NCBI GenBank assembly: GCA_900617975.1
Contig: UZAE01012071.1
Location: 18,280 to 69,308, forward strand
Direction: 5' to 3'
Source: Rodentolepis nana
Taxonomy: Eukaryota > Platyhelminthes > Cestoda > Cyclophyllidea > Hymenolepididae
Length of the DNA: 51,029 nucleotides
A program made the position numbers and the translations under genes. Position 1 is the stretch's first letter; each line of letters begins with the position of its first letter. The notes under the pieces are model-generated. The model was not told the DNA's origin and did not search any database. It saw nothing but the letters and a program-made list of their open reading frames with translations. Shown one piece after another: positions 445-47,404 of the stretch.

Positions 445-790
445 ACTTCTATTCACGGGGGTGTGCGATTGACTTACCTCCATGTAGTGCACCCTGGGCA
501 ACGTATACTCATACGGCAAAAAGTCTATTAACCGGCAGTTGACTTCAGACTCCAAACTACCATCACCCCACTGAATGTCAAATTCGACAACTTCAACCGT
601 ACTCACCTCACTTTTTTCCAACTTTGTGTCTGTCTCTTTTACATCTTTGAAACACTCTTCTGTCCCCCCCCCCCATCTCGACCTTTTTTCACTTTGATGT
701 TCCTTCCCATCTGTGAAGCCTGAAGTCAACTGAAGGGCTAATGATAACTAACAAAACGCCTGCCATTTGATATAAATAACTTTTATTCAC
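445..790 (+). mobile_element. Non-autonomous ribozyme-headed retroelement, copy 1, with target-site duplications
   Basis: A ~322 bp element at 457-778 is flanked by an 11/12 matching target-site duplication (ACTTCTATTCAC at 445-456, ACTTTTATTCAC at 779-790). It starts with the ribozyme-like head (GGGGGTGTGCG...), runs through a pyrimidine-rich middle that includes a C11 tract at 664-674, and ends in the family tail CGCCTGCCATTTGATATAAA. The head and tail are shared with the LINE at 1470-4013, so this copy was probably mobilised in trans by LINE machinery. It encodes no credible protein. A long antisense reading frame across it is a by-product of the sequence. Confidence 0.88.
458..528 (+). 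ncRNA. HDV-like self-cleaving ribozyme, decayed copy
   Basis: Fold by eye: P1 GGGGTGT (458-464) with GCACCCT (489-495); P2 ATTGACTT (468-475) with AAGTCTAT (521-528), one U-U mismatch; P3 ACC (476-478) with AGT (486-488), one mismatch; L3 TCCATGT offering CC for P1.1; GGGCAAC (496-502); P4 GTAT-ACTC-ATAC (503-514); then GGCAAA carrying the putative catalytic C517. One extra G at 457 lies between the target-site duplication and G1 of P1. The P2 and P3 mismatches suggest this copy is weak or inactive. Confidence 0.72.
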
Positions 791-1469: not shown

Positions 1470-1541
1470 GGGGTGCGCGATAGACTTATCTCCACGTGGT
1501 GCACCCTGGACAACGTATCTTCGTACGGCAATAAAGTCTAT
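1470..1541 (+). ncRNA. HDV-like self-cleaving ribozyme at the LINE 5' end
   Basis: This is the best-preserved copy. P1: GGGGTGC (1470-1476) with GCACCCT (1501-1507), seven pairs including a terminal G-U as in delta ribozymes. J1/2: GCG. P2: ATAGACTT (1480-1487) with AAGTCTAT (1534-1541), eight perfect pairs. P3: ATC (1488-1490) with GGT (1498-1500). L3: TCCACGT, whose CC can form P1.1 with GG at 1508-1509. Joining segment: GGACAAC (1508-1514). P4: GTAT-CTTC-GTAC (1515-1526). J4/2: GGCAATA, with C1529 in the position of the catalytic cytosine. The 5' target-site duplication ends at 1469, so cleavage would release exactly the element's 5' end. Delta-like ribozymes are known at the 5' ends of R2, RTE and L1Tc elements. 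Activity here is inferred, not shown. Confidence 0.88.
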
Positions 1542-1572
1542 CACTCGGCATTTGATTTGACTTCGATTTATT

Positions 1573-2500
1573 ATGATTAGCCTGGAAAAAGGCATCAAGA
1601 GAAATCGCCCTCGTCAGGGCGAATCACAACGTCTTCAGATCCTTCAGTGGAATGCTGGAGGGCTGTCACAGGACAAAAAGATCCAAGTCCAGAAAATCCT
1701 ACAAACCTATGATGTAGATATTTTCACAATTATGGGAGCAAAAATTTCGGATGACAAACTGAAGTACTACCAATTCCCAGGCTACACCGTCTACCTTCTA
1801 CCTAAATCCCGTCAAGTTGCAAGTGGAATTCTAACTGGAGTAAAAGAAGGCCTCACCTCACACTACGATCTAATCAAGAGTATGGGCTCGACACAAGACA
1901 TATGTGAAATAATCAGATTAAATGTTTGGAAATGTCAAAACCACTTCAAGATATATGCAGTCTATAATCCACCCCAGAATTGTCCAAACTTTGACTTTCT
2001 AAACATCTCACACAAAACTGTAGCGTTAGGAGACTTCAACGCCCATTCCACCAGATGGGGCTACAAGGATACAAACATAGCTGGAAAGGAAATCGTAGAC
2101 ATGCTAAACACCAACCCTCTGGAACTTATTTACAGCAATGAGGATCCGGCTACATATTTGCACTACAATGGAACCAGAACAACTCCTGACTTACTCCTTG
2201 CTTCAAGCGACATCAGCGAGCATACACGCCGCAAAATAATTGACGATCCTTGTTCTGGTCACAAACCAGTCATTGCTAGTATTACCACTGGCAGCAAAAG
2301 CTTGACAAGGAAAGTGTCAACTAAACTATCATGGAACTTCAAGAAGTCTGACTGGCCTAGATTCACAAACCTTTTAGAGAACGAACTTCACACAAGTCCC
2401 CTCAACTTCAACCAACATCCTGACAAACTTTACAATGATATCACGAATATTATAATCAGATGTGCAAAGAAAACTATTCCCCAAATCAAGACTAAACAAT
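1573..2500 (+). pseudogene. LINE ORF part 1: endonuclease/exonuclease/phosphatase (APE-like) domain
   Basis: About 310 codons from the ATG at 1573, 31 bases after the ribozyme. The domain would nick target DNA for target-primed reverse transcription. Visible motifs: QWNAGG (residues 25-30, metal-site Asn27), GDFNAHS (153-159, Asp154 and Asn156), TPDLLL (204-209) and SGHKPV (228-233, general-base His230). The position of the metal-binding Glu reads Gly55 (IMGAK, GGA at 1735-1737), a change one base away from GAA. A C-terminal linker (SWNFKKSDWPRF, about residue 253) normally leads into the RT, but the frame runs into unrelated sequence after the undetermined base at 2501 and stops at 2571. Probably catalytically dead. 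Confidence 0.9.
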
Positions 2501-2552
2501 NACAACAATGGAATGGTAATCAACACCGCGCTAACTGCATTCCAAACTTTTT

Positions 2553-2755
2553 TTGGCCCGTCACAGCATAAACCCACTTCTAAGGTACAAGGATACTACC
2601 ATAGAAAAAACCAATGAATTCACTTATCTCGGAATGACTTTTGATACAAAGCTAACGTGGAAAAGTCACATTGCTAAAATTGCAGAACGAGTCTCCAATA
2701 GACTGAAGGTACTGAAGCGTCTTGCTGGTAGCGTATGGGACTGTGCACTCAACTC
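2553..2755 (+). pseudogene. LINE ORF part 2: C-terminal thumb of the reverse transcriptase
   Basis: The third frame shows the RT thumb signature NEFTYLGMTFDTKLTWKSHI, followed by a helical stretch (AERVSNRLKVLKRLAGS). No fingers or palm and no YADD-type active site exist anywhere between this and the endonuclease, so roughly 1.2 kb of RT coding sequence is absent compared with typical elements of this type. The frame is lost near 2750, where one inserted or deleted base moves the reading into frame 1. It has no start codon of its own. Confidence 0.82.
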
Positions 2756-3372
2756 TCGATACCACTTACAAAATGTTTATTCAGCCAATAATGTTTTATT
2801 GCTGTGAGCCACTCATTACAGCCACAGAGGTGACTCTCAAACCACTCGCGAAGGCACACAACCAAGCATTACGAATAATTACTGGAGGGATAAAATCAAC
2901 ACCCATTGATGCAATGCTCATAGTTACAGGAAGCACCACAATATGTTCCCTTATCAAAGAAAAGGCCTTGATCCTGTATGAGAGGCTACTGCGCATTCCC
3001 ATGGATAAGTTCTTCAGCACCTATGAGAATAGACCAAGACATCTGAAAACGCAATCTGGTCTAATACAGAAAGCCATAGAACTGAAGAAAGCGTTACAAA
3101 TCGATGATAAACCAAAAAGCCTCTCTCTCTCCATGAACCCATTAGCAGACATTGATGTAGTGTGTTGCACCCAACTGCTTGACTTCTTCAGGAAATCAAA
3201 CACCCCTTCAGAGCAAATGCGCTCACTGGTCCTTGAGACAATCAATGTCAACTATCCTGCAGATCAATGGCTCCAAGTCTTCACTGATGGGTCACACCTA
3301 GAAAACCAAGCAATCGTTGGTGCAGGTGTCTATTCTGAACTCTTCTCTTTCTACGCAACAGCGGGACAATAG
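2750..3372 (+). pseudogene. LINE ORF part 3: RT-RNase H connection and RNase H N-terminus
   Basis: Continues the thumb (MFIQPIMFYCCEPLITA, then LAKAHNQALRIITGG, a region typical of LINE ORF2 after the RT). It passes through a charged linker into the first RNase H strand WLQVFTDGSHL. The first catalytic Asp is GAT at 3286-3288. The frame ends at a TAG at 3370-3372. One lost or gained base near 3369 separates it from the rest of the RNase H domain. Confidence 0.85.
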
Positions 3373-4006
3373 ATCCGCCTTTGAAGGAGAAACAGAGGCT
3401 ACTAGGATAGCACTATGCCGATTATGTTGCCCGGATACGAAATTCACCAAATCGGTGATACTTTCGGACTCACAATCAGCAATAAACTCTATTGGAAACA
3501 GAGAGTCACCCAAAACAGCTGGGATGAAGGAATGTAGAAAACTCTATGAGCTGCTGAGAGAGAAAAACAAAACAGTGGTTCCACAATGGATTCCTGGTCA
3601 CTGTGGCATTAAAGGCAATGAGCTTGCTGACACACTTGCTAAGAAGGGGACAACGATTTTGCAATGCATGGACCGGCCCATGTCTTTCTACACAATGAAG
3701 GCCTTAATCAGGAGAGAATTCCATACCTCAAGGTGCAACGAACTTAAAGCTCGAACAAGGGAGAAACAGTGGACAGTGGTACTCTCCGGTATAGCCAACT
3801 GGCCAAGAATCGAAGCCGTTGCTGAGTTTAGACTACGTACCGGACACGATTGCTTGGCAAAACACCTTCTCAGATTGGGAGTATACACTCAACCCACATG
3901 CCCCCTATGTAACCTACAGGAGGAAATGGAGAAGACCCATCTGATTCGGTGTCCAGCCCTAAAGGCAACTAATGATAAATATCATGAAGCCTACCATTTA
4001 AAATAA
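3350..4006 (+). pseudogene. LINE ORF part 4: RNase H remainder and C-terminal zinc knuckle
   Basis: Frame 2 carries the rest of the RNase H fold: AFEGETEA (catalytic Glu), VILSDSQSAI (catalytic Asp), and QWIPGHCGIKGNELAD (His and final Asp). A C-terminal domain follows with a putative zinc knuckle CPLCNLQEEMEKTHLIRC (C-X2-C-X9-H-X3-C), common at the end of such LINE proteins. The stop codon at 4004-4006 lies inside the tail shared with the short elements. Together with part 3 all four RNase H residues are visible, so this region decayed by indels rather than by many substitutions. Confidence 0.88.
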
Positions 4007-4013
4007 ATAAATA
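3961..4013 (+). repeat. LINE 3' tail shared with the non-autonomous family
   Basis: The last ~50 bases (CTAATGATAAATATCATGAA, then GCCTACCATTTAAAATAAAT) align with the 3' end of the short elements (for example CTAATGATAACTA..., GCCTGCCATTTGATATAAAT) at about 80% identity by eye. In LINE-SINE pairs the LINE reverse transcriptase recognises such a shared tail, so this is the likely recognition signal. It ends in ATAA/AAAT units rather than poly-A. Confidence 0.8.
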
Positions 4014-4024
4014 AATTTATAAAT

Positions 4025-6140: not shown

Positions 6141-6485
6141 ATATATGGCATAAACGGAGTGTGCAATAGACTTAACTGCACGTTGTGCACCCTGGGCAAC
6201 GTATACTCATGCCTCAAAAAAGTCTATTATTCGGCATTTGAATTCTGACTTCAAACTACCATCACTCCGACTGTATGTCATATTCCTCCACTTCCGGAGT
6301 ACACATCGTACCTTTGTCTCGACCTTTGTGTTTGTCCCTCCTACATCTTCCCTTCCCCCCCTCTCTCCTTTTGTTACTTTGACTTTCCTCCCCTCCGTGT
6401 GAAGTTCGAAGTCAATCACTAAATGACTTATGACAACTATCATAATGCCTGCATCATTTGATGTAAATAAATATTTTGTCTAAAC
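6141..6485 (+). mobile_element. Non-autonomous ribozyme-headed retroelement, copy 2 (old)
   Basis: Element 6156-6470 (~315 bp) with a degenerate target-site duplication (6141-6155 against 6471-6485, 11/15). The head GGAGTGTGCAATAGACTT is followed by the family core (GCACCCTGGGCAAC, GTATACTC) and P2' AAGTCTAT. P3 is disrupted and the GGC before the J4/2 A-run reads CTC, so the ribozyme is probably dead. The middle is C/T-rich with two C-runs. The tail is CATTTGATGTAAATAAAT. Divergence and the poor duplication suggest an older insertion. Confidence 0.82.
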
Positions 6486-7668
6486 ACGAGAGAGCTCATA
6501 GAGCGGACTTCACACGAGGTGAATTCTAATAATCAGAGTTTGTTAAATAATTATATTAAATTATTTCGCAACAAAAGTCAGGTAGAATTGTGCTTCGGAA
6601 CGATCCCTTTCCACGTAGGTACCTCTTCTGAATTGATTAAAGTGCTGAATATTGGTAAATTAGTTACTGTCAAAGTTCTAGATTTGACGAATTACCTATT
6701 CAAAGTGCCAAAGGCGTCGATCTAAAAAAAATGTCCTTTAAATTTTAGACGAACATCGCATTCCTTTACAAAGACATAACTGACTTGTCAGAATACGTTA
6801 AAATCCAATCCGAGGGTTGCCAGAAATCTCAGAACACATCAATACACACTTATTTATTCCTATGATTTATCGATTTTTAATGAGTATAGAGCTTGTACTT
6901 AAGTTTACACAAAAAGCCTGACCGATATAAATAAACAGAGCTTGTAAAGCTGACGTTAATTTTAGAAAGTTTTCAGTTCCAATCGATACTTGGTTTAAAT
7001 CAAACGTAAAAAAGATTATAATTTATTCATTATTTATGTAAAACCATTCCAACTTACCTCTGGAATGCAAATGTAATATTTTATCTGAAAATCCCGCCAT
7101 CTTAACTTTCTGAGGAAAGCACAGTTTCTCCTCAAGTAAATTTAATTCAATTTTAAACAACTGTGGCAGACATATTGTTGCGGGGAAACTTATGCGATGT
7201 ATGTGAAGTGAGTTTCTTTAAATCTCATATTTTATCACAAATTGCTTTCTAATAATTTATCTTTGCAAATCATATCCCAATTGAAGTAAATTTTAACTTT
7301 GTTGCCCAATTATAAGATAGATCGAACAACAAACGTTTAGTTGTTTTTAACAATTTGGAGGTATAATTGCCCCTAACTAATAATATAAATGAAGACCTTT
7401 TAACTCTTGCATGTATAGACAATAATTGATTTATTAATAGTATTAAATTGAGATTTACTTTTCTGTGACCTCTTTAGTATGCTCCAAGCTTTTCTCTACT
7501 TAACAATTTTTGACTTAAATGAAGTAATAAACTCCAAGAAAGTAGGTTTTAAAGTTTTTTGGTAAAATTAATGCCATCGTAGAAATTAAATTTATATTTT
7601 TAAAATTACTTTTCTTATAAGGCAAAGTGCAACTCCCAGCAAACATTCATAATGAAATATAGTTAGCA
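6486..7668. other. non-coding DNA, nothing recognised
   Basis: AT-rich DNA without supported genes or repeats. A 68-codon frame starting at 6519 just after the element has no recognisable similarity. Confidence 0.45.
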
Positions 7669-7698
7669 ATATATATATATATATATATGATATATATA

Positions 7699-7734
<36 letters not shown>
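7669..7734. repeat. (AT)n microsatellite
   Basis: Alternating AT for 66 bases with two GATAT interruptions, 28 bases before the next retroelement copy. Confidence 0.95.
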
Positions 7735-7736
<2 letters not shown>

Positions 7737-7749
7737 TGCTTTCTATTTG

Positions 7750-8097
7750 ATTTGTACAATGTTTATTTATTTCAAATGGCGGGCATTATGATAGTTATCC
7801 CTAGCTCTTTAGCCGACGTTAGGCTTCACAGAGGAGAGGTACATCAAAGTGAGAAAAATTCGAGAGTGGGAATAGAAGAGAGATTCAAAGATGTAAAAGA
7901 GGCAGACATATAGAGACAAAGGCAGAGAAAAGGTAAGATGAGTATTGTGGAAGCGGTGTAATATGACATTCAGTGGGGTCATGATAGTTTAAAATTAGAA
8001 GTCAATTGCCGGTTTATAGACATTTTACCTTATGTGAATGCGTTGCCCAGGGTGCACCACGTGGAGGTGAGTGTATCGCATACCCAATTTGTATACT
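7750..8097 (-). mobile_element. Non-autonomous ribozyme-headed retroelement, copy 3
   Basis: Element 7762-8085 on the minus strand. The 3' tail lies at the left (TTTATTTATTTCAAATGG on the plus strand) and the ribozyme-like head at the right. The flanks give a partial duplication (7750-7761 against 8086-8097, 9/12). The core GCACCCTGGGCAAC is intact, but P1 (GGGTATG) and P2 (ATACACTC) are mutated, so self-cleavage is unlikely. Confidence 0.82.
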
Positions 8098-14710: not shown

Positions 14711-15057
14711 GACATTTATTTATATAAAATGTCAGGCTTTATGATAGTCGTCATGGCGTGTGCGATGGACTTACATCCACGTGATGCACCCTGGGCAACG
14801 TTTACTCATACGGCAAAAAAGTCTATAAACCGACAGCTGACTAATGACTTCAAACCACCATGACCTCACTAAACTGGCAGTTGACTTCTGACTTCAAATT
14901 GCCATCACCCCAAAACCGGCAGTTGACTTCTGACTTCAAACTACCATGACCAAACCGACAGCTGACTAATGACTTCAAAAAGGTAAGATGAGTACTGTGG
15001 AAATAATCGAATATTAAATACAGTCAGGTCATGGTAGTTCAAAGACTTTGCCGTAGG
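14711..15057. mobile_element. Rearranged non-autonomous retroelement (inverted tail, head, tandem units, inverted middle)
   Basis: Reading left to right: the family 3' tail on the minus strand (14711-14754), then immediately a plus-strand head starting at its first G (14755). Next come four tandem copies of the segment after the ribozyme (about 14827-14870, 14871-14912, 14913-14951, 14952-14979). Last is a minus-strand piece of the element middle (14980-15057). Tandem units 1 and 4 share one variant (CCGACAGCTGACTAATGACTT), and units 2 and 3 share another (GGCAGTTGACTTCTGACTTC), giving an a-b-b-a order. A tail joined head-on to an inverted 5' part is what twin priming produces. The tandem units need an extra step such as template switching. 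Confidence 0.8.
14755..14826 (+). ncRNA. HDV-like ribozyme in the rearranged copy
   Basis: P1 GGCGTGT (14755-14761) with GCACCCT (14786-14792), one C-C mismatch; P2 ATGGACTT (14765-14772) with AAGTCTAT (14819-14826), a G-U wobble replacing A-U; P3 ACA with GAT, poor; L3 TCCACGT; GGGCAAC (14793-14799); P4 GTTT-ACTC-ATAC; GGC with C14814. Probably weak because of P1 and P3. Confidence 0.65.
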
Positions 15058-17956: not shown

Positions 17957-18302
17957 GGCGATAGCATCATTATATTATTTCAAATGGCAGTCGTTTTGAA
18001 TATTTATCATTAGCCCTTTAGCTGGCTTCGGGCTTCGCAGAGGGGGGTAAATAAAAGTGGGAAAATTCGAGAGGGGGAACAGAAGAGTGATTCACAGATG
18101 TACAAGAGACAGACACAAAGGCAGAGAAAAGGTGAGATGAGCACTGTGGAAGTTGTGGAATATGACATACAGTGGGGTGATGATAGTTTGAAGTCAGAAG
18201 TCAGCTGCCGGTTAATAGAATTTTTTGCCGTATGAGTATACGTTGCCCAGGGTACACCATGTGGAGGTAAGTCTATTGCACACTCCGGCGATGACATCAT
18301 TA
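17957..18302 (-). mobile_element. Non-autonomous ribozyme-headed retroelement, copy 5, with TSDs
   Basis: Minus-strand element 17973-18286 (~314 bp). The flanking duplication is 16 bases with two mismatches (GGCGATAGCATCATTA at 17957-17972, GGCGATGACATCATTA at 18287-18302). The right duplication directly abuts the first G of the ribozyme P1. The left end carries the tail (TATTATTTCAAATGGCAG on plus). A sense frame of about 96 codons runs through the element but shows no domain. Confidence 0.9.
18215..18286 (-). ncRNA. HDV-like ribozyme of copy 5
   Basis: On the minus strand: P1 GGAGTGT with GTACCCT (one A-C mismatch, G-U pairs tolerated), P2 ATAGACTT with AATTCTAT (7 of 8 pairs), P3 ACC with GGT, L3 TCCACAT, GGGCAAC, P4 GTAT-ACTC-ATAC and GGC. 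All elements are present. Activity is uncertain because of the P1 mismatch. Confidence 0.72.
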
Positions 18303-29942: not shown

Positions 29943-30274
29943 TCAATTTTGAAGTTCATTTATTTATATCAAATGGGAGGGGTTTTGATGGTTATCATTA
30001 GCTCTTTAGTTGACTTCAGGCTTCACAGAGGGGAAGGAACATCAAAGTGAAAAAGAGTCGAGAGGAGGGGGGAGAGAACAGAAGAGTGCTTCAAAGACGA
30101 AGGTTGTAAGGGAAGAAAAAGGTGAGGTGGGTACTCTGGAAGTAGTCGAATATCACATACAGTGGGGTCATGGTAGTTTGAAGTCAGAAGTCAACTGCCG
30201 GTTTATAGACTTTTTGCCGTATGAGTATACGTTGCCCAGGGTGCACAACGTGGAGGTAAATTCAGTTTTGGAGT
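29943..30274 (-). mobile_element. Non-autonomous retroelement, copy 6, 5'-truncated, with TSDs
   Basis: Minus-strand element 29956-30261 (~306 bp) flanked by an 11/13 duplication (TCAATTTTGAAGT at 29943-29955, TCAGTTTTGGAGT at 30262-30274). The head stops inside the ribozyme: the P1 and P2 5' strands are missing and the sequence starts at about P3 (ACCTCCACG). The other parts (GCACCCTGGGCAAC, P4 and P2') remain. Truncation at the 5' end with intact target duplications is the signature of incomplete target-primed reverse transcription. An antisense 112-codon frame crosses it and is not regarded as a gene. Confidence 0.88.
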
Positions 30275-33875: not shown

Positions 33876-34211
33876 ACTGAAACAAATGTTTATAACAAAT
33901 GGCAGGCGTTTTGATAATTATTATTAGCCCTTTAGTTGACTTTGGGCTTCACAGAGGGGAGGAGAAACACCAAAATGAGAAGAATTCGGGAGGGGGAACA
34001 GAAGGGTGCTTCACAGATGTAAAAGATCCAGACAAAACCAAGGCTCAGAAAGAGTAAGATGAGTACTGTAGTAGGGGTCGAATATGGCATAGAGTGAGGT
34101 GATGGTAGTTTGAAGTGAGAAGTCAACTGCCGGTTTGGTAGACCTTTTTGCCGTATGATTATACGTTGCCCAGGAGGTAAGTCTATCCCACACCCCACTG
34201 AAACAAATATT
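33876..34211 (-). mobile_element. Non-autonomous ribozyme-headed retroelement, copy 7, with TSDs
   Basis: Minus-strand element 33891-34196 (~306 bp) with the best duplication after that of the LINE: ACTGAAACAAATGTT (33876-33890) against ACTGAAACAAATATT (34197-34211), 14/15. The right duplication abuts the first G of GGGGTGTG on the minus strand, which is exactly the predicted ribozyme 5' end. Thirteen bases covering P3' and most of P1' are deleted between short GG repeats (34171-34176), so this copy's RNA cannot fold the ribozyme although its 5' end is exact. Confidence 0.9.
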
Positions 34212-35867: not shown

Positions 35868-36225
35868 CTCAGCACTCACGGGGTGTGCGATAGACTGGCC
35901 TCCAAGTGGTGCACACTGGGTAACGTATACTCAAACGGCAAAAATGTCTATCAATCGACAATTGACTTCTGACTTCCAACTACAATGACCCGACTGTATG
36001 TCATGGTCGACCACTTTCACAGTACTCATCTTGCCTCTTCTCTGCCTTTGCGTCTCTCTGTCTCGTACATCTGTGAATCAGTCTTCTTTTCCCAACCCCT
36101 TGACTTTTTGTCACTTAAATAGTCCTCCTTCTCTTTGTGAAGTCTAAAGTCAGCAAAAGGGCTAATGATGACTACTAAAATGCCTGCCATTTGATATAAA
36201 TAAATTAATTAATCTCAGCACCCAC
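35868..36225 (+). mobile_element. Non-autonomous ribozyme-headed retroelement, copy 8, with TSDs
   Basis: Plus-strand element 35880-36213 (~334 bp) with an 11/12 duplication (CTCAGCACTCAC at 35868-35879, CTCAGCACCCAC at 36214-36225). The first base after the left duplication is G1 of the ribozyme. The tail GCCTGCCATTTGATATAAAT is followed by AAATTAATTAAT before the right duplication. Confidence 0.9.
35880..35951 (+). ncRNA. HDV-like ribozyme of copy 8
   Basis: P1 GGGGTGT (35880-35886) with GCACACT (35911-35917), one mismatch; J1/2 GCG; P2 ATAGACTG (35890-35897) with ATGTCTAT (35944-35951), six pairs; P3 GCC (35898-35900) with GGT (35908-35910), fully paired with a changed first pair; L3 TCCAAGT; GGGTAAC (35918-35924); P4 GTAT-ACTC-AAAC, one mismatch; GGC with C35939. 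Confidence 0.72.
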
Positions 36226-44729: not shown

Positions 44730-44901
44730 TGCTATCTGCCTGCGCGGCCATTCACATATGAGCGCGGACGCGGGGTGATACGGACGCGTGGGCGCGGTGC
44801 GAAGTGTGTGTATCAGAATGCTAATCAGCCAGGCACTCTCATGCACGTGTACACATCATTTGCCTTACCTTCACACGCAGGTCGCTTCCACGACGGATGA
44901 T
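44730..44901 (+). promoter_or_regulatory. CpG-rich leader of the cadherin gene
   Basis: A short CpG-dense patch (44737-44801, with GCGCGG, GACGCG and GGCGCGG) stands out from the AT-rich surroundings just before the coding exon. It may be promoter or 5' untranslated sequence. A pyrimidine-containing TTGCCTTACCTTCACACGCAG ends at 44880, 21 bases before the preferred ATG, and could be a splice acceptor for a 5' leader exon or a spliced leader. No TATA box is obvious. Confidence 0.4.
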
Positions 44902-46986
44902 ATGCCCTCGAAGGTTCTGCCCTCTATCATCTCATTCTTCCTGCATCTCCTCTCTACTCTCCCATTTCTCCTACTTTTCACCTACCCCTCTATCTATGCC
45001 TTCCATGCAAGCACACCAGACGCCCAAAAGACCAATGTGGTCTTTGTTATTGACGAGGAATCTCCAGTAGGCTCTCGAATTGGCAGTCTGGCAGAGAAGC
45101 TTGTTCTCGATAATTTCTTACGCGGAGAGGTGAATTTTGTTCCCTTGACAGATCTACGATTGGTGAACTTCAATCGGACTAATGGGTTAATTACAGTGAG
45201 ACAAAGAATTGACAGAGAAGGTCTGTGTAAAGAAATTGGAATATGTTGTCCAGGTCAGAGTATAATTCCCACCTCTTCTCACTCTACATTCCACGATCCG
45301 CTCTCCCCTGATGTGCAGTACTCGGGCTGTGCCATTAAGATGTTAGTGATGGACCAAAGACAGCGAAGCTCTAACACACCGCAAATAAATCAGGAACATC
45401 CTCTGATTCAAGTAATTATTTATGTCAACGATTTGAATGACAATCCTCCCTTCTGGTCTCCTGATAAACTAGAGCTGGAAGTTCCAGAGCACACAATGGT
45501 TGGTAGAAAGTTCCAGCTTCCCGAGGCTACTGATCCAGATCATGGGCCTGAGCATACGGTTCAGAATTATCGACTAATTCCAAGTGAACCTCTTGACCAT
45601 GATCCAAATATAAGGGGAATAGCCAGCGATGCATTTGAATTGACCAGTGAACTAATTGAACGTTCTCCTGGATCGCCATATAAATTCTCTCTAGGACTGA
45701 AGGTGAAAGCTGACCTGGATCGTGAAAAGCAATCTGCTTATTACTTCCTACTCATAGCTACTGATGGTGGCTCACCACAACTTACCGGAACTCTAAGTGT
45801 GATTGTCCGAATTACTGATATTAACGACCAGACACCGTACTTTCGACAAAATAATCCCTCAGTTGAAATTTCGGAGAATATATCGCCGGGAACGCAGATA
45901 TTCACAGCTGTAGCCCTGGATGACGACCCATCCGATGCAAACCGTCTGGAATATAAAATTGGTTTAACTGCGTCCGCCGAGGTTCAACGACTTTTCGCCA
46001 TTGACAGTCGAACAGGTGCGGTGAGTGTTTCCGGAGAAGTAGACTATGAATCTGCACCTATTCTACCCAGTAGAGATGTAAAAGATTCAATGTATAGCGG
46101 TAGCAACGAATACGGGTACATTATTCCAATTGAAGTTACAGACCAAGCTCATATTGCCGAAACAAAACTCCGAGTCCATGTCCTAAATGCAAACGACAAT
46201 CACCCAGTTATTTCCATTCAATCACCTCTACAGAATTCCGCTTCCAAAGGGGAATTCTATATTCGCGAAGATGCACCGGTTGGAACTTTAGTTGCTACTA
46301 TAACTATCTCCGATGCTGACGAGCGAAGTGGTGTTGATCCCAGCTTTAGCAATAGACAACCTGACTGTAAGGCAAATAACAACGCCTATTTTACTGTGGA
46401 GAAACTGCATCCAACAATGCGAAATTTTTTCAAACTCGTTGCTTCTAAGCCCTTGGACCACGAAACTAAAAGCACCCATGGAATTACGATCACCTGCTAT
46501 GACTCCGGACAGCCAGTTCTCGATACCAAGATGCACATCACTGTGCGCTTGGAAGATGTGAATGATTCGCCACCAGTCTTTGAAAAATCTATTTACTATG
46601 CTCGCATCAGTGAAGGTCTTCCTGTTCATACTCCAATTATTAAAATACATGCCTCCGATGCGGACACGGGGGAGATGGGTGACGTGCGCTATAGATTCCT
46701 GGGGAAAGTTCATCAAATGGACTACGATCCACTGGTTATTCTAGACGAGAAGACTGGACAAATAAGGAGTGGTAAAATGTTTGATCGAGAGGTGATGAAA
46801 TCATTTAACTTCACAGTCGAGGCCGTAGATTGCGGAGGTGAAAATAAGTCATCATGCGGAGGGCGGGTGAATACTGCGACAGCTGAAGTTATTGTCCAAA
46901 TTGAAGATATCAATGACTGTGCCCCAGAATTTGACCAACAGTCCTATGAATTCACCATTCAGGAATGCCATATTTCCAAAATTTTG
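44902..46986 (+). CDS. Protocadherin-like cadherin, first large coding exon (partial gene)
   Basis: Cell-surface adhesion protein. 695 codons are read here. The ATG at 44902 is preferred because a signal peptide follows at once (MPSK, then a hydrophobic stretch to about residue 33). An in-frame ATG at 44818 would add 28 residues before it. Repeats: EC1 about 45-184, with a protocadherin-like Cys-containing loop (RQRIDREGLCKEIGICC, later C) and ending DLNDNPP; EC2 185-314 (ADLDRE, ATDGGSPQ, ending ITDINDQTP); EC3 315-435 (DYE in place of DRE, ending LNANDNHP); EC4 436-560 (DADERSG, CYDSGQP, ending LEDVNDSPP); EC5 561-677 (DADTGEMGDVRY, FDRE, ending IEDINDCAP); start of EC6 678-695. These linker motifs bind calcium. 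The exon ends in phase 0 at a donor after codon KIL. The remaining repeats, transmembrane segment and cytoplasmic tail must lie downstream, outside the window. Confidence 0.93.
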
Positions 46987-46992
46987 GTGAGT
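46985..46992 (+). other. 5' splice donor of the cadherin exon
   Basis: TG|GTGAGT, an almost ideal metazoan donor. Past it the frame loses cadherin character and stops at 47059-47061, which supports the exon end at 46986. Confidence 0.85.
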
Positions 46993-47404
46993 AGGCCAAT
47001 TTTGTTCCATACGTTATTATTACTTTTACTCATGTGCAAGTTGACAAGACCATGCAAGTGACGCTGTCAGTCGAATTAATACGATAGGTGAGGAGATGGG
47101 GGGGGGAACGAGAGCGTCAGAGTGTAAGTACTCCACCCAGCCACCCCCAATTCAAGAGGTCCAGGTGTTTCGGGTGAAAGTGGAGGGTGAATAACCTGAC
47201 TTCATTTGCATGCATGTTCGAGCAAGCTAGAGCAGACTACTGCCAGTGGTGGTTTAAAGCTATGGTAGTTAACTTAATTAACATGTCCGCAGAGATAGGA
47301 CAAAGAGCGGAGAACACAGATGTCTGTCCATAAATCGGTCTTTTCTTGTCATATTCAAAATCAACATCACCAGATAATCAAGGACCTCAGAGCTCTAATT
47401 AACG

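Follow-up and report, generated by a model that had tools for sequence, protein, structure and literature searches.

A predicted HDV-like ribozyme heading an RNase H-bearing LINE and an abundant short element in the flatworm Rodentolepis nana

HDV-like ribozymes are listed for R2, R4, R6, RTE, SART, Baggins and L1Tc (PMC11620745), and ribozyme cleavage at the 5′ end of the element is described for R4, Dong, Baggins and L1Tc (PMC3774820). L1Tc encodes an AP endonuclease, a reverse transcriptase (RT) and an RNase H, carries an HDV-like ribozyme within its 5′-most 77 nt, and has short partners (PMC4035085). The R2/R1 SIDEs of Drosophila combine a ribozyme with a LINE 3′ end (PMC3414825), and CCUCCUCGUGG is the most conserved stretch of the R2 ribozyme (PMC5035012). 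Among flatworms, an HDV-like ribozyme has been reported for the planarian R2 (PMC3774820). With R2, R4, RTE, SART, Baggins and L1Tc as precedents the principle is known, and the HDV-like ribozyme heading a LINE in Rodentolepis nana is a well-supported new case of this 5′-end trick. The LINE lies in a stretch of 51,029 nt, referred to below as the window, and all positions are those of the window unless a locus is named.

The LINE and the short elements related to it resemble L1Tc/NARTc (ingi/RIME) with their Pr77 block in that the ribozyme makes up about the first 75 nt of an element with an AP endonuclease, an RT and an RNase H, and in that the 5′ ribozyme block is retained in a short non-autonomous partner; cleavage occurs just upstream of the ribozyme in L1Tc/NARTc and is predicted at the same site here (PMC4035085). 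In contrast to trypanosome L1Tc, the host here is an animal, and in contrast to L1Tc/NARTc, the middle of the short element does not derive from the LINE as far as the comparison reached. Going by their descriptions, Baggins, SART, RTE, R4 and R6 are likewise LINEs with an HDV-like ribozyme in the 5′ UTR (PMC11620745, PMC3774820), and R2 and the R2/R1 SIDEs of Drosophila carry theirs at the 5′ end (PMC3414825). R2 and the present family share a near-identical CCUCC(U/A)CGUGG stretch (PMC5035012); at bases 20-30 of the ribozyme, 9 of 123 copies have CCUCCUCGUGG and 73 have CCUCCACGUGG. However, R2 is rDNA-specific, whereas the elements here are dispersed and have variable target-site duplications (TSDs) of 8-15 nt. 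R2 SIDEs are described as uncommon in Drosophila (PMC3414825), whereas the ribozyme core occurs here at more than 14,000 places, LINE copies and arrays included. Schistosome hammerhead SINEs and twister-variant LINEs are flatworm self-cleaving retroelements, as is predicted here, but of different ribozyme classes (PMC11620745). Among the literature matches listed there was no report of this LINE/short-element family and no HDV-like ribozyme of a flatworm element besides that of planarian R2; the Ruminski 2011 catalogue lies outside this scope, and priority is not established. The first-pass annotation knew of no description of such a ribozyme in this LINE family, but a ribozyme in an RNase H-bearing LINE is already published in L1Tc (PMC4035085). 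The notable features are how abundant the ribozyme core is and that the host is an animal, and 5′-end processing by HDV-like ribozymes would be extended to an RNase H LINE that is dispersed in an animal genome.

The first 73 bases of the LINE, G1470-C1542 on the plus strand, fit an HDV-like double pseudoknot base by base, confirming this fold for the predicted ribozyme, and cleavage is predicted between T1469 and G1470. Base 1 of the ribozyme is G1470. P1 joins bases 1-7 (1470-1476) to bases 32-38 (1501-1507) as GGGGUGC/GCACCCU, with six Watson-Crick pairs and a terminal G1-U38 wobble. P2 joins bases 10-18 (1479-1487) to bases 65-73 (1534-1542) as GAUAGACUU/AAGUCUAUC, with nine Watson-Crick pairs. 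P3 and L3 occupy 1488-1500. The three pairs of P3 (bases 19-21 with 29-31; 1488-1490 with 1498-1500) are A-U, U-G and C-G in the window copy and A-U, C-G and C-G in the family consensus, and they close the seven-base loop L3, UCCACGU (bases 22-28, 1491-1497). The CC of L3 pairs with the GG of J1/4 (GGACAA, bases 39-44, 1508-1513) to form P1.1, C23-G40 and C24-G39. The P4 hairpin (1514-1527) pairs CGUA with UACG (bases 45-48 with 55-58) and is followed by G59 and C60, the latter being C1529. P1, P2, P3, P1.1 and P4 thus stand in the nested order of a double pseudoknot. Pairing, including that of P1 and P4, was counted over 123 copies, in which the key bases are C60 in 116, G1 in 112, U38 in 122, U22 in 120, G27 in 118, G39 in 119 and G40 in 121. 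Following HDV position names, we take C60 to be at the position of C75, and the catalytic C after P4, the G1-U wobble, the U-CC-G of L3 and the GG-CAA of J1/4 are presumably features of the HDV class. The fold, the plus strand, the catalytic C and the LINE context had all been proposed in the first-pass annotation and are confirmed; the order and pairing of the helices were read from the sequence and from the covariance-model alignment to RF00094. The perfect pairing of P2 also holds but extends over nine pairs instead of eight. The start at G1470 is correct, and the last P2 base is 1542, one beyond the end at 1541 given there.

The 5′ ends of the elements coincide with the predicted cleavage site, which is the strongest evidence for the ribozyme. 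Unique ribozyme matches were gathered from 90 loci and the window (161 in all, 65 LINE-type and 96 short-type). Matches start at base 1 in 48 of the 65 LINE-type and 53 of the 96 short-type cases and by base 3 in 54 and 64, respectively; full-length copies are over-represented in these counts because most loci were chosen by similarity to queries that have base 1 or the start codon as their first position. At loci chosen by the endonuclease instead of the ribozyme, 19 of 31 LINE-type matches start at base 1 and 23 of 31 by base 3. When copies with unique flanks (53 LINE, 58 short) were compared, the share of the commonest letter was 0.32-0.64 over the 15 columns preceding base 1 and 0.83-1.00 over the 15 columns that start with it, so the unrelated flanks end at the predicted scissile bond. 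TSDs were analysed for the short copies and the window LINE. An exact TSD of at least 8 nt was found in 29 of the 52 short copies with both flanks, against a mean of 4.0 and a maximum of 8 for mismatched flank pairs in 200 shuffles. The TSD directly adjoins G1 in 20 of these 29 copies; five have one extra base before base 1 (T, T, T, A, A), not a cap-like G, and four have three or four extra bases. For the short copy at 458, the TSD is imperfect and is separated from base 1 by one extra G. In the window LINE, AATTTATAAAT is found on the plus strand at 1459-1469, adjoining G1470, and again at 4014-4024, where it is partly ambiguous with the A/T-rich tail, indicating that the LINE spans 1470-4013. 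These genomic 5′ ends support the earlier inference that the ribozyme forms the 5′ end of the LINE.

The remaining parts of the LINE all lie on the plus strand. The ORF at 1573-2571 encodes an AP-like endonuclease (PF14529, 5.2e-16; PF03372, 8.6e-8), and its start codon is 30 nt downstream of the ribozyme, so that the ribozyme makes up nearly the whole 5′ UTR. The coding remnant at 2722-3372, between the endonuclease and the RNase H, lacks most of the RT and has no Pfam match. The segment at 3317-4006 encodes an RNase H (PF00075, 3.4e-9), bearing out the RNase H reported earlier, and a C-terminal Cys/His stretch, and the 3′ tail at 3969-4013 ends in (AAAT)n. RT matches are present in other copies (PF00078, 1.4e-9 in L054 and L044, and 8.6e-7, just under the cut-off, in L032). 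With an endonuclease, an RT in other copies, an RNase H, TSDs and a 3′ repeat tail, the LINE is an RNase H-bearing non-LTR retrotransposon; its RT motifs presumably resemble those of the I group. The endonuclease has at least 141 matches in the genome (130 of 1,403 candidates scored), many of which hold stop codons. One copy, L034, is internally deleted, with a single open frame running from the endonuclease directly into the RNase H without an RT.

The same ribozyme heads an abundant short SINE-like element that the earlier finding had not included. The copy at 458-779 (plus strand, ribozyme at 458-529) represents an element of about 322 bp. Further heads of short copies are at 6156-6244 (plus; the element runs to about 6470 by eye), 7999-8085 (minus), 14755-14842 (plus), 18198-18286 (minus), 30188-30259 (minus; homology from base 17), 34120-34196 (minus; with a deletion) and 35880-35968 (plus). 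Compared with the window LINE, bases 1-89 of the short element are 83% identical and the last 42 bases are 81% identical (34 identical bases, matching 3969-4010 of the LINE, E 4e-7), and nothing convincing was found between these 5′ 89 and 3′ 42 bases. The element is most aptly described as a SIDE- or SINE-like hybrid, and the shared 3′ tail suggests that it is probably mobilised by the LINE. Origin as a plain internal deletion of the LINE is rejected, as the middle of the window LINE gave only chance-level short matches. A classical Pol III SINE is rejected as well, since no tRNA, 5S or 7SL head reaches the Rfam gathering score in the window and the Pol III A and B boxes are no better than those of shuffled sequence. 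Among L031-L060, the middle of the short element matched nine loci (L031, L037, L040, L047, L049, L050, L055, L056 and L058), eight of which, together with L001 (the same place as L031), hold short-element ribozyme matches, so that these loci look like short copies. A genome search with the short element gave 5,655 first-look candidates, with at least 42 matches among the 40 scored.

Short patterns showed that the ribozyme core recurs. Within the window, with up to 3 mismatches allowed, an 18-mer from the core matches 9 places, where 0.02 would be expected. In the assembly (107 Mb, 4,701 contigs), with up to 1 mismatch allowed, a 20-mer of the core has 14,496 places (6,615 + 7,881), a density of roughly one per 7.4 kb, and the reversed-pattern control has 0; these places pool LINE and short copies with truncated ones and with tandem arrays. 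No relatives were found in viral contigs by the exact core pattern or the LINE protein, or in bacterial and archaeal contigs by the exact core pattern. One array, at L102 (G000:C20:53400-54320), holds 19 tandem copies of GTGCACCCTGG in 921 bases at a spacing of 36-49 nt with one gap of 86, and similar pieces are found in L058, L072, L098 and L051. Most units of the L102 array span P3, the P1 3′ strand, J1/4 and P4 without the P1 5′ strand, and the tandem-array units are probably mostly inactive.

Alongside the observed fold, its position, the coincidence of the 5′ ends with the scissile bond, and the insertion of the short copies and the window LINE with TSDs, we consider it highly probable that the ribozyme forms the 5′ end of both the LINE and the short element by self-cleavage before G1470 (in the window LINE) and that the uncapped product serves as the template for target-primed reverse transcription. 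The ribozyme RNA would be transcribed as part of a longer read-through transcript, fold co-transcriptionally and cut 5′ of G1470, leaving a 5′-OH. The uncapped cleaved RNA would then be reverse transcribed at the target, with the short element mobilised by the LINE, and each full new insertion would start at base 1 and could cleave itself from its new host transcript. The ribozyme may also aid translation of the ORF 30 nt downstream. It is possible, if unlikely, that the block combines a promoter with an active ribozyme, as in Pr77/L1TcRz, such that the copies carry their own transcription start and also trim read-through transcripts. The L1Tc Pr77 block is a precedent for this (PMC4035085), and none of the Pol III boxes of the short element is better than those of shuffled sequence.

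An ancestral fold that was active in a family now dead, with the present copies as decaying fossils that do not cleave, appears distinctly improbable. The helices are broken in many copies, many endonuclease matches hold stop codons, and the sole joined endonuclease-RNase H frame, that of L034, lacks an RT; the retrieved loci reach about 1.5 kb past each match, too short to show a complete LINE frame. However, all tested pairs and C60 are intact in 26 of 53 LINE and 20 of 70 short copies, and a 916-aa frame in contig C3214 carries both endonuclease and RT matches. 

The variability of the copies was compared region by region. In the LINE set, which was partly chosen by ribozyme similarity, L4 is the most variable region at 0.129 substitutions per site, against 0.014-0.066 elsewhere, and P2 (0.017), J1/4 (0.022) and J4/2 (0.014) are the least variable. 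L4 is the loop expected to be free to vary. The short set is more even, with J1/2 highest (0.121), bases 59-60 of the catalytic site at 0.079 and L4 at 0.067. Within short copies, the ribozyme has 0.051 substitutions per site, against 0.088 in the body and 0.060 in the tail, in 48 of 58 copies picked by their body, the 10 whose ribozyme aligned poorly or was over 35% diverged having been dropped, which biases the comparison toward a low ribozyme rate. The ribozyme rate is below the body rate in 37 copies and above it in 9. The LINE and short consensus sequences differ at six of 73 bases (7, 41, 50, 51, 54 and 73), and no pair is broken. At 7 and at 73 a Watson-Crick pair gives way to G-U, and at 54 the U-G of what may be a fifth pair of P4 becomes U-A; the differences at 50 and 51 lie within L4, and that at 41 is an A/G change in J1/4. 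Covariation gave no support. Canonical pairing over the 123 copies, which come from one genome and are too similar to each other, is 0.9483 against 0.9480 in shuffles, with 116 of 300 shuffles reaching 0.9483, and there are 3 double changes in helices against 3.3 in shuffles. Pairing no better than shuffles is expected if copies decay freely after insertion, and it neither supports nor refutes the ribozyme.

It is very improbable that the conserved 5′ block serves chiefly as a Pol II promoter, downstream or internal, or as a binding site, starting transcription at G1, and that its fold is inactive or incidental. Such a start at base 1 would give uniform 5′ ends too. However, capped templates often leave an extra G upstream, and the position before base 1 shows no enrichment of G (13 of 113 full copies). 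Moreover, nothing about a promoter calls for the helices in HDV order, for the conserved bases of L3 and J1/4, for the catalytic C or for a covariance-model score that passes an Rfam cut-off. The trypanosomatid Pr77 block, which would favour a promoter, is both promoter and ribozyme (PMC4035085).

Returning to the ribozyme, its covariance-model scores lie below the Rfam cut-offs in the window and are higher in some other copies. A scan of the whole window at the Rfam gathering score gave 0 matches of any family. At a relaxed threshold, RF00094 matched 1468-1541 on the plus strand with 28.8 bits (cut-off 50; E 0.55 in a search of 9 kb against 4227 families) and no mispaired model position, in an alignment that is in register and begins two bases upstream of G1470. 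RF02682, also relaxed, matched 460-528 with 29.7 bits, 8084-8016 with 29.0 and 1472-1541 with 27.6 (cut-off 44). Its cut-off is passed in two of eight other sources scanned, both short copies (L095, 46.2 bits, and L062, 44.5 bits; E 5.2e-6 and 1.3e-5 in that search), and the LINE copies L034 and L002 reach 37.5 and 37.6 bits. The plus-strand covariance-model match predicted in the first-pass annotation is therefore present at a relaxed threshold but lies below the cut-off in the window itself. In the alignments above the cut-off, P1 is paired from element base 3, two bases in from G1, with one mispair; given this shifted register, the scores support the architecture and not the exact 5′ end. 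Over the 107-Mb assembly, RF00094 has at least 71 places at E≤10, a lower bound because 86 of 18,786 first-look candidates were scored; the best has 44.0 bits (E 0.0019), and none is above the cut-off of 50. All 10 of the places retrieved (ranks 1-5, 7, 13, 26, 29 and 49) belong to this LINE/short-element ribozyme family. P2 is unpaired in the printed Rfam models, so that the match of its nine bases adds evidence that does not depend on the model hit. Nested folding energies are unremarkable (z -1.72 and -0.12) and uninformative, because P2 and P1.1 cannot be modelled together with nested helices. A repeat that resembles the HDV fold by chance is scarcely credible and is rejected on model scores, copy number and 5′-end coincidence, since the E≤10 matches of RF00094 in 4 of 14 control genomes (none above the cut-off), the weak energy z-scores and the lack of covariation stand against the genome-wide RF00094 and above-cut-off RF02682 E-values, the P2 bases outside the models and an element end at the predicted cleavage site.

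The short element captured the ribozyme, and its intact and broken copies form a natural series for the effects of cleavage on transposition and on host transcripts. Chances appear evenly balanced that the ribozyme drove a repeat that ranks among the most numerous in a flatworm genome, in which a promoterless short element built from a ribozyme, an unrelated insert and a LINE tail would spread by excising itself from the host transcripts at its insertion sites. If this is true, thousands of potential self-cleavage sites would have been left in host genes and intergenic RNA.

Three further features were observed in the window and the genome. A single long FAT/protocadherin-like ORF at 44788-47061 is evidently a host gene (Cadherin, 6.5e-46; Cadherin_FAT4_N, 8.3e-16). 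A long (AT)n run at 7666-7741 has sub-cut-off mir-1277 matches on both strands, which are likely spurious. Locus L101 (G000:C1797:9958-11292) is a mitochondrial COX1 contig whose 7 in-frame TGA codons, flatworm-like protein and best Pfam score under genetic code 9 make a flatworm host probable; of the three codes compared, code 9 gives 357.5 bits, code 4 gives 350.1 and code 5 gives 343.0.
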